The notes beneath the pieces are model-generated. The model was not told the origin of the DNA. It did no database searches and saw only the letters and a program-made list of their open reading frames with translations. The translations under genes were made by a program, and so were the position numbers. A DNA stretch of 64,000 nucleotides from Mucilaginibacter flavus (GTDB lineage Bacteria; Bacteroidota; Bacteroidia; Sphingobacteriales; Sphingobacteriaceae): the NCBI RefSeq assembly GCF_030409315.1, contig NZ_JAUFPS010000012.1, forward strand, positions 47,820-111,819, read 5' to 3'. Each line of letters opens with the position of its first letter. Position 1 is the stretch's first letter. This document shows, in pieces, positions 17,097 to 19,616 of this stretch.

Positions 17097-18281
17097 TTAT
17101 CCCCTCATAAACGGGTTAAAATTACGGGTACCAATCTCCATACCTGCGGCCCTACATATTGTTTTATCGCCAAATTTAAAGTTAATGTTATCCATAGCCT
17201 GGTAAAGGCGAATGCGCTCCTCATTGTCTTCAAACAGGTTAATCTGGTAACGGCCGCTGGCCAGGTCACTTAACCTAACGCCTATTAGCCTGATGGGCCT
17301 GTGTTGATTCCAGGCTTTTTTGAGCAGTTTTTTAATGCCGGGTAATAAAATATGCTCGGCGGCGGTAAGGGCTATTTTTTGCTGTTGTGTATGGGTTTCA
17401 AAATTGGCGTAACGGATTTTGATAGCCAGGCAGGATGCCAGCTTATTTTCGCGCCGCAGTTTTGAGGATAACTCTTCGGTCATGGATACCAAAATGGTTT
17501 CAAGCGTACGCTGGTCATTAATGTTGATATCAAAAGTACGTTCGGTGGAAATCGACTTTCTATCAGAATGCGGCACTATCTCGCTATGATCAATCCCATG
17601 CGCCTTTTCCCAAACATATATACCCATCTTACCAAAAACAGCTTCCAGGAACTTGATATTGGTACGCTGCAAATCTCCTATTTTTTCAATGCCATATCGA
17701 TACAATTTTTGGCTTGTACTTTCGCCCAGGCCAGGAATCCTACTAATGGGTAAAGGAGCCAGAAATTTAATTTCTTCGCCGTGTTTTATCCAAAGTTGTC
17801 CGTTGGGTTTGGCCGCGTTGGTGGCCATTTTTGCAACTGTTTTGCCCGATGCCATACCAAAAGATATTGGCAGCCCGGTTTCTTTGATTACCCGTTGCCG
17901 CAAATCGCAAGCAATTTTAAAACAATCGTAAAAACGATCCATTCCTGTCAGATCGATATAGAACTCATCTACCGACGTCTTTTGATATAGCGGCACAGCA
18001 TCGTGAATAATTTCGGTAACCTCGCGTGAAGCCTCTGAGTAACGCCCATGCGTACCCCGCACGATGATAGCTTCGGGACACAGTTTCATCGCCTGTTTCA
18101 TGGGCATGGCCGAATGGATACCAAACTTACGCGCTTCATAACTACACGAAGCCACTACTCCACGCTCGGCCGAGCCACCGATAAGTACAGGCTTGCCAAT
18201 GAGCGCGGGATTAAACTTCCGCTCAACCGATACAAAAAATGAATCGAGATCGATGTGTACAATGTGTCGCTTTTGATCCAT
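17097..18281 (-). CDS. dinB: DNA polymerase IV (Y-family)
   Basis: Error-prone lesion-bypass polymerase, 394 aa from the ATG at 18281 (MDQKRHIVHIDLDSFF); the 16 upstream in-frame residues are untypical. Catalytic carboxylates D11, D105 and E106 (HIDLD, SVDEF); steric-gate aromatic F15/F16; thumb HhH around RIPGLGES (181-188); little-finger domain about 245-355. A clamp-binding-type peptide QINLF lies at 346-350, like QLNLF of UmuC, about 45 residues before the C-terminus. It is divergent from the 2H phosphoesterase genes across a 73-bp gap, so promoters may be shared. Confidence 0.95.
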   Translation of the reverse strand: MDQKRHIVHIDLDSFFVSVERKFNPALIGKPVLIGGSAERGVVASCSYEARKFGIHSAMPMKQAMKLCPEAIIVRGTHGRYSEASREVTEIIHDAVPLYQKTSVDEFYIDLTGMDRFYDCFKIACDLRQRVIKETGLPISFGMASGKTVAKMATNAAKPNGQLWIKHGEEIKFLAPLPISRIPGLGESTSQKLYRYGIEKIGDLQRTNIKFLEAVFGKMGIYVWEKAHGIDHSEIVPHSDRKSISTERTFDININDQRTLETILVSMTEELSSKLRRENKLASCLAIKIRYANFETHTQQQKIALTAAEHILLPGIKKLLKKAWNQHRPIRLIGVRLSDLASGRYQINLFEDNEERIRLYQAMDNINFKFGDKTICRAAGMEIGTRNFNPFMRG

Positions 18282-18354
18282 AAAACAAATGTGAAAATAA
18301 ATTTGCGATTTTACTAATATTTTTAGCAATTTTGATTTATCAATAACGATAGCT

Positions 18355-18975
18355 ATGCCGATGTACGAAGATTATTTAATGCTCCTTTCGCCACCTGAGG
18401 CTATTAAGCATGAAATATCTCGCTATAAAAAAGCTTCGGCTAAAATTATTGGCAATTACAAAAGCATCAATTCTCCGGCCCATATTTCTATCATGCATAT
18501 GGAGCGGCAGAAACCGTTCATGGCCGATAAAAATGTAGAGTTGATGGAGCAAACACTGGCTCAATTGCCGCCGGTATTATTGCATTGGGATGGCTTTGCC
18601 CATTTTACGCATCTGCATAAAAAGATGACGATATACGGCAATATCCGATCTACACCGGCGAGTGACGAATGGTTTAACCAATTGAAGAAAAAGCTAAAGA
18701 TCAAAAAGAATATTGCCCCTCATATTACTGTAGTACGCGATGTGCCCGAGGAACAGTTTAATATGCTGTGGCCGCATTTCAGGCATAAAAAATTAGTTGA
18801 ACCATTTTGGATAAACGCCTTGACGGTGGTAAAGCGCGATACTTTTGACGCGTATGCCAAATGGGAGTTTTTTAAATCCTTCGGCTTTAAAAACAAAACA
18901 GGTTTTATAGGGGCAAATAACATCGAAGCTGGTCGGATAGACGTAGCGGGCCAGGACCAGTTCAATTTATTTTAA
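18355..18975 (+). CDS. 2H phosphoesterase (2'-5' RNA ligase/CPDase family), copy 1
   Basis: 206-aa protein of the 2H superfamily, whose members open 2',3'-cyclic phosphates or act on 2'-5' linkages. Both catalytic HxS/T motifs are present: H43-I-S45 (PAHISIMHM) and H123-I-T125 (APHITVVRD), with the family-typical spacing. QFNMLWPHF at 134-142 is shared with the next gene. The chain ends exactly in QFNLF (202-206), matching the beta-clamp-binding consensus Qxx-L-F. It is divergent from dinB and followed 20 nt later by a paralogue. Substrate unknown; an action on nucleic-acid ends near replication is my inference from the tail and neighbour. Confidence 0.85.
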   Translation: MPMYEDYLMLLSPPEAIKHEISRYKKASAKIIGNYKSINSPAHISIMHMERQKPFMADKNVELMEQTLAQLPPVLLHWDGFAHFTHLHKKMTIYGNIRSTPASDEWFNQLKKKLKIKKNIAPHITVVRDVPEEQFNMLWPHFRHKKLVEPFWINALTVVKRDTFDAYAKWEFFKSFGFKNKTGFIGANNIEAGRIDVAGQDQFNLF

Positions 18976-18995
18976 ACAATTTAATAATTAGAAAT

Positions 18996-19616
18996 ATGAA
19001 TTCGCCATTTTTTCACTTCGTGTTATCATTACCGGATCATGTGAATACGGATATTGTTAAATTAAAAAATGGATCCAAACGGATCATCGGCGATTATCCG
19101 GGCGCAAGCTCCAAACCTCATATTACTACCAATAACTATCCACGGCATCCGGTTCATGTGCATGATAACGGCTTCTCGATGTTTGAGCGCAGGCTAACCG
19201 CATTGCCTCCCATTATTTTTGAAATTGATGGCTTTGATTGCTTTAATGAAAACAATGACTATAGCAAAACCATTTACGCCAAACTCAAAATCAGCGATCA
19301 TCATAACTACTGGCTTAAGTTATTAGGCGATATTGTGGGTAAAAGCAGCGGCACGCCACACATCACCATAGCACGCGGCCTTAACCCCGATCAGTTTAAT
19401 ATGCTGTGGCCTCATTTTCAAAAACGGCAATTCCAAAAGAAATTTGTGGTATCTAAATTCACCATTTTAAAAAACCTTGTTACCACAGGCACAGCCGTTT
19501 ATCGCGAGTTTGAGTTTAAAGGGTCGGCCGATTCATTAAGCGCTGTTTACCAAGATTATTTATTGCGCAATTTAAAAAGCGCGTCGTCTTTTAGCCAGCA
19601 AATAAGCCTTTTTTGA
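18996..19616 (+). CDS. 2H phosphoesterase, copy 2
   Basis: Paralogue of the preceding gene with the same length of 206 aa. Catalytic motifs H42-I-T44 (KPHITTNN) and H122-I-T124 (TPHITIARG) are intact, and NMLWPHF near 135-141 is conserved. Sequence outside the motifs has diverged strongly, so the duplication is old. It too ends in a clamp-type pentapeptide, QISLF at 202-206. No signal peptide, so cytosolic. Same strand, 20 nt downstream of copy 1, presumably one transcript. Annotation as 2'-5' RNA ligase would be by family only. Confidence 0.83.
   Translation: MNSPFFHFVLSLPDHVNTDIVKLKNGSKRIIGDYPGASSKPHITTNNYPRHPVHVHDNGFSMFERRLTALPPIIFEIDGFDCFNENNDYSKTIYAKLKISDHHNYWLKLLGDIVGKSSGTPHITIARGLNPDQFNMLWPHFQKRQFQKKFVVSKFTILKNLVTTGTAVYREFEFKGSADSLSAVYQDYLLRNLKSASSFSQQISLF

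Follow-up and report, generated by a model that had tools for sequence, protein, structure and literature searches.

The window analysed in this study, a 64,000-nucleotide stretch of Mucilaginibacter flavus DNA, carries dinB and, divergent from it, two tandem genes for 2H phosphoesterases. The dinB gene (17097..18281, minus strand) encodes a Y-family DNA polymerase IV of 394 aa, counted from the ATG, with the Pfam domains IMS (8.7e-47) and IMS_C (2.3e-26). Its clamp-type peptide QINLF (residues 346-350) was placed at 17232..17246 on the same strand from its position in the translated gene. Both 2H genes lie on the plus strand and encode PF13563 proteins of 206 aa each. 2H phosphoesterase 1 (2H-1; 18355..18975) was assigned by Pfam, AlphaFold and PDB matches and ends with QFNLF (18958..18972, plus strand), while 2H phosphoesterase 2 (2H-2; 18996..19616) was assigned by Pfam and ends with QISLF (19599..19613, plus strand). 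The tail of 2H-1, residues 183-206 (18901..18972, plus strand), is predicted to be disordered. Between the ATGs of dinB (18281) and 2H-1 (18355) lie 73 bp, and these contain at 18312..18328 the palindrome TACTAATATTTTTAGCA, a putative operator for the non-canonical LexA of Bacteroidetes that includes the CTAA-N5-TTAG element described in the main text of PMC8565304. The first-pass annotation had named the QINLF peptide, the equal length and Q-x-x-L-F ends of both 2H proteins and the 73-bp gap, all of which were found again in the translations and ATG coordinates. The shared palindrome had not been seen then and is a feature added here.

Both window proteins are members of the 2H phosphoesterase superfamily, as judged by Pfam score (PF13563 with 48.1 bits and 32.7 bits at a cut-off of 27), by the pair of HxS/T motifs and by predicted fold. 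The motifs, which had been described earlier as kept in both proteins, are indeed present as HIS at residue 43 and HIT at 123 in 2H-1, and as HIT at 42 and HIT at 122 in 2H-2; over 180 aligned residues, the two proteins are 29% identical. AlphaFold models with 40 sequences gave a pLDDT mostly above 90 for residues 1-179 of 2H-1 and below 50 for residues 183-206. For 2H-2, a helix from 178 to 199 followed by a low-confidence end was predicted. When the predicted 2H-1 model was compared with the PDB by Foldseek, 37 chains matched at E<=0.001. The top match was YjcG of B. subtilis (2d4g, E 3.8e-9, 168 residues), followed by the plant CPDase 1jh6, an archaeal relative, the D. radiodurans CPDase 5h7e and E. 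coli LigT. By these models, the tail is an addition onto a standard 2H fold. With the YjcG, LigT-ThpR and CPDase group (PF13563, PF02834, TIGR02258), the window proteins thus have the fold and both HxS/T motifs in common, but they add about 27 residues ending in Q-x-x-L-F as well as an SOS-type operator. Unlike LigT-ThpR, they score below the TIGR02258 equivalog cut-off of 65.7 (2H-2 with 21.2 bits; 2H-1 unlisted at E 0.1). 2H enzymes are widespread, with PF13563 matches in 11 of the 14 control genomes. Human ASCC1, which is part of an alkylation-damage repair complex, was also among the matches (8tly, E 8.6e-5); it is eukaryotic and alike at the level of the fold only, and we know of no clamp peptide in it.

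Conservation of the tail was followed in a genus set consisting of the 82 of 90 first-sample Mucilaginibacter genomes with a match to 2H-1, the window's included, and of 18 more genomes of the genus. After two of 101 loci had been dropped (L062, a 74-residue fragment, and L114, cut by the contig end), the set comprised 99 loci with 138 2H ORFs, counted without requiring an HxS/T match. Seven loci at which genomes of the genus carry distant 2H copies (L115, L159, L222, L231, L241, L243 and L297) are neither in this set nor in the other-genus set described below; the copy at L159 ends with QLDLF, and in that at L297 QTDLF stands five residues from the end. Q..LF within the last eight residues was found in 72 of the 138 2H ORFs, compared with 0/361 other ORFs from the same loci, the latter being stop-to-stop frames of at least 200 residues, not all of which are genes. 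The 66 motif-less 2H ORFs are mostly shorter proteins, not proteins with degenerate tails, and 37/99 loci have no 2H protein with a tail motif. Tail length was measured from a core-only model, and the unconditioned test of the motif is the one by tail length: it is present in 72 of 78 tails of at least 18 residues and in 0/60 shorter ones. Random loss of the terminal pentapeptide, which the first-pass annotation had set against its own reading, was therefore not seen. Five of the six exceptions among the long tails (QMNLL, QISLS, QVKFF, LQLSAF, and QTSLF with 11 further residues behind it) are, judged by their sequence, variants or near-misses of the motif, and the sixth (L143) shows none.

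The linkers between core and peptide vary in length and cannot be aligned. Among the 63 cases with the peptide exactly at the end, a set in which the zero entropy at Q, L and F is due to its construction from exact terminal matches, position 2 is I, F, V, T or M and position 3 is S, N, K, D or G. The codons vary in the same set (for Q, 17 CAA and 46 CAG; for L, five codons), and therefore selection acts on the protein; conservation of the tail at the DNA level was ruled out by this synonymous variation. In the 6.96-Mb genome of the window, a DNA-level search for a terminal Q-[hydrophobic]-[N/S/D/G]-[L/F]-F followed by TAA or TGA gave 10 hits, of which only those of 2H-1 and 2H-2 fall in ORFs of more than 62 codons; a looser terminal pattern was unselective in this genome (417 vs 221 in the control). 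By the genome-wide count together with the background of neighbouring ORFs, a chance origin of the paired tails was ruled out, which bears out what had been argued from the two sequences at first.

Since the sequences of the genus are related and not independent, these counts are not probabilities, and the clades carry the weight. A tree of the cores, drawn midpoint-rooted from 114 of 116 closed ORFs (two of less than 150 residues were left out), placed tails in a group of 60 rows, 54 of them tailed (SH-aLRT 87), and in a separate clade of 10 rows, all tailed (SH-aLRT 99). Tail presence changes 8 times on this tree compared with 37 times on average when the labels are shuffled, and the tree is compatible with two gains of the tail or with many losses. 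Both HxS/T motifs are intact in 97 of the 114 aligned rows, and two of the other 17 are tailed fragments. Among 72,556 plasmid records, no match to 2H-1 was found.

Proteins such as Pol IV, UmuC and MutS bind the beta clamp through short peptides. The bacterial consensus of these peptides is of the QL[S/D]LF type (excerpts of PMC9690074). The 2H proteins resemble such clamp clients by carrying a pentapeptide, Q-[I/F/V/T/M]-[S/N/K/D/G]-L-F, at a flexible C terminus, a likeness seen here at the level of the motif only. No 2H enzyme was described as a clamp client in the literature searched; the only paper found there to contain both "2H phosphoesterase" and "sliding clamp", PMC7824862, does not link them in the excerpts considered. 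In the genus loci, Q..LF occurs inside the last 70 residues of all 95 dinB ORFs of more than 350 aa and reads QINLF in 94. The genome has an ordinary DnaN (G000:C38), whose best PDB match is 8dt6 (E 6.4e-102). Docking of the 2H tails onto the clamp is likely, given their motif and flexibility, the occurrence of this peptide class in the DinB proteins as well, and the ordinary DnaN.

Within the genus, dinB lies next to the 2H genes and divergent from them at 95 of the 99 loci. In seven of the 95, the open frames of dinB and 2H gene are more than 200 bp, and up to 2.3 kb, apart. Two loci without dinB (L061 and L102) are cut by the contig end directly upstream of the 2H gene, while no dinB was found in 2.5 kb upstream up to the contig end at L064 and in about 4 kb at L069. 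Eight of the 90 genomes, among them three with a completeness of 97% or more, have no match to 2H-1, and all eight have a DinB-family protein. In G007, G040 and G054, this DinB shows 72-73% identity and no 2H gene lies in its 1.5-kb flanks. dinB is thus kept in genomes without a match to 2H-1, so the 2H genes are common but not essential companions of dinB. In the other genera of the family, dinB was seen in the examined stretches, which reach 1.5 to 4 kb to each side, at 7/79 2H loci, in all seven divergently. An absence of linkage to dinB, which would also have spoken against the first-pass reading, was thus not seen in Mucilaginibacter. The proposed recruitment of 2H enzymes to the clamp is partly supported: it agrees with the long tails and the dinB linkage, while the loci without the motif, the genomes without 2H-1 and the small share of dinB-linked loci in other genera speak against a strict form of it. 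Further observations concern single loci: At L056:2742-4002, dinB is split into two open frames and the adjoining 2H gene keeps the terminal motif, and in G004, G058, G065, G248, G310, G339 and G344 a further PF13563 gene is found on the strand opposite to that of the dinB-linked 2H gene, at a distance of about 1.3-3.7 kb.

The palindrome TRCTAA-N5-TTAGYA is present between dinB and 2H gene in all 95 loci that have both. The pattern had been written from 18 intergenic regions before it was counted on all 95, which leaves 77 loci that played no part in choosing it. Altogether, 109 sites were found in 97 loci compared with 0-2 in five first-order simulations; at L064 and L069, where dinB is absent from the examined stretch, the site lies just upstream of the 2H genes. 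In the window it occurs only once, and in the whole genome of the window it occurs 14 times compared with 4 times for a reversed control pattern. The ORFs flanking these sites encode, according to Pfam, RecA, two IMS polymerases, SRAP, two radical-SAM proteins, an HD protein and an HTH_3-S24 protein. One of the operator-linked IMS polymerases lies behind an ORF read by eye as ImuA-like, with no Pfam hit, and a RadA-like protein next to a site was also read by eye. The gene for HTH_3 and Peptidase_S24 carries two operators, the first at its start and the other within the HTH-coding part (L343 and L344; G000:C30:137322 and 137490), and from this arrangement it is likely the LexA-type repressor of this genome.

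According to the main text of PMC8565304, CTAA-N5-TTAG is bound by the non-canonical LexA of Bacteroidetes in gel shift and precedes dinB, recA, imuA-imuB-dnaE2, splB, UDG and SRAP genes. The palindrome of the genus contains this element with matching half-sites, and as far as that text describes the regulon, both have in common dinB, recA, imuA-imuB, SRAP and an S24 repressor with a site at its own gene. The set of 14 sites therefore looks like an SOS regulon including its repressor. Since they share the LexA-type operator, the 2H genes are very probably SOS genes, and their induction by DNA damage is to be expected with high probability. The shared operator thereby links these genes with DNA damage, as far as sequence can tell, independently of the evidence used in the first-pass annotation. 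Some sites deserve separate mention. A second operator-linked dinB-like gene (L352; G000:C97:105432), followed by a DnaE2-like start recognised by eye, is distinct from the ImuA-like/IMS cassette at L351, and on contig C97 two further DnaE-type genes lie near the two polymerase cassettes. Of the 14 sites, four (L340, L345, L347 and L348 on G000:C14, C36, C38 and C66) adjoin genes that are not commonly regarded as part of the SOS response, one of them with an HD domain, and may reflect either chance or new members.

For the other genera of the family, 83 loci were used, four of which gave no 2H ORF at the threshold, and 76 different proteins were obtained. Of these, 44 end with Q..LF or L.LF within eight residues, while one Q..LF and one L.LF were found among 227 background frames. 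The operator is present for 33 of the 57 proteins without Q..LF, which often end with xLxLF and thus have the Q missing. Proteins ending with Q..LF (QLSLF, QGKLFA and others) have the exact operator in 2/19 cases and lack it in 17/19. The combination [LM]F within six residues of the end was found in 33 of 35 proteins with operator compared with 22 of 41 without it (Fisher 7e-5, on related sequences; background 12/227). In the nearest genus sampled (L144-L146), the motif occurs in 0/3 2H proteins, though two of them have the operator. A second 2H branch, represented by L147, L149, L153, L159, L278, L303 and similar loci, shows the Q-x-x-L-F end with no dinB in the examined stretch and no exact operator; its members are possible clamp clients outside SOS control.

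On balance, we favour a mechanism in which LexA-controlled 2H phosphoesterases are tethered to the clamp and clear RNA-type or blocked ends while lesions are bypassed. Of its elements, the operator match, the linkage to dinB, the predicted core fold and the conserved motif can be read from the sequences. Together with dinB, both 2H genes would form one divergent SOS locus, in which the LexA-type (S24) repressor occupies the palindrome between them. DNA damage would free this palindrome, so that bypass polymerase and 2H proteins are produced together. Each 2H protein would consist of a folded catalytic core and a flexible tail, the last five residues of which would dock into the hydrophobic pocket of the beta clamp like QINLF of DinB. 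The substrates of the tethered enzyme would then be RNA-type ends with a 2',3'-cyclic phosphate, a 2'-5' bond or another block, as they may arise at stalled forks, at gaps or from misincorporated ribonucleotides, and clearing of these ends would let synthesis or ligation continue. The substrate and the cooperation with DinB are proposed tentatively and could well turn out otherwise, the substrate being deduced from family membership only.

Instead of acting at the fork, the 2H enzymes might respond to genotoxic stress by repairing tRNA or other RNA that has been damaged, with the tail as a minor localisation aid or as a binder of another partner. Such SOS-linked RNA repair would fit the tail-less 2H genes of the genus, which also occur in operator-bearing loci, and ligT of Deinococcus, which belongs to the radiation regulon described below and may do likewise. 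It leaves unexplained, however, why a clamp-type peptide is fixed at the extreme C terminus beyond linkers that cannot be aligned, and we regard it as unlikely. Somewhat less likely still is that the SOS-induced 2H proteins serve traffic control by occupying or sharing the clamp pocket and thereby set which polymerase works. The 2H fold would then sense a nucleotide or be structural, and catalysis would be secondary. Regulation by pocket occupancy has a precedent in the clamp-binding toxin SocB (excerpts of PMC9690074). Eight of the 64 tailed rows do not keep both HxS/T motifs (two fragments and six with substitutions), and the six substituted proteins keep the terminal motif; but both catalytic motifs are kept in 56/64 tailed rows, and traffic control offers no role for the tail-less paralogues under the same operator. 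Binding of the peptide to another partner or to the protein's own core would agree with the missing Q in many relatives from other genera, but it is improbable given the same peptide class in every DinB ORF of sufficient length at the same loci, a 2H-1 tail that is predicted to be disordered and not packed against the core, and the ordinary DnaN.

Clamp-tethered end cleaning under LexA control thus remains the preferred reading, and for its regulatory part the ligT gene of Deinococcus is, by analogy, a precedent for a 2H gene inside a DNA-damage regulon. As described in excerpts of PMC1978522 and PMC5552922, ligT lies in a cinA-ligT-recA operon under a radiation-response site; it differs from the locus described here in repressor and operator, and in forming an operon with recA, not dinB. 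In the main text of PMC8565304, supplements aside, the terms RNA ligase, phosphoesterase and COG1514 are absent. If the assignment is true, the 2H genes would be a new member of the Bacteroidetes LexA regulon, unnamed in that main text. To our knowledge, the role of most bacterial 2H enzymes is unsettled, and a 2H branch placed in the SOS regulon and, by its motif, on the sliding clamp would give them a specific and testable job in DNA repair. It would also point to RNA-type ends or DNA-embedded ribonucleotides as a class of substrate that damaged forks must clear.

In a wider sense, the LexA-induced, clamp-riding 2H phosphoesterases could perhaps represent an unrecognised class of SOS effectors that repair RNA-type or cyclic-phosphate DNA ends in translesion synthesis, spread across Sphingobacteriaceae in dinB-linked and unlinked branches. 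For comparison outside the family, the top hits to PF13563 or 2H-1 in the genomes searched, which are not a random draw, were collected from 39 loci; five of these gave no 2H ORF at the threshold, and 32 different sequences resulted. In these sequences from other Bacteroidota families, Q..LF or L.LF was found in 0/32 and the operator in 0/32, by which the tail as a general property of 2H proteins was ruled out. dinB was seen at one of 34 such loci (L120 in G103, a member of another family), where it lies on the same strand as a tail-less 2H gene and the two open frames overlap.
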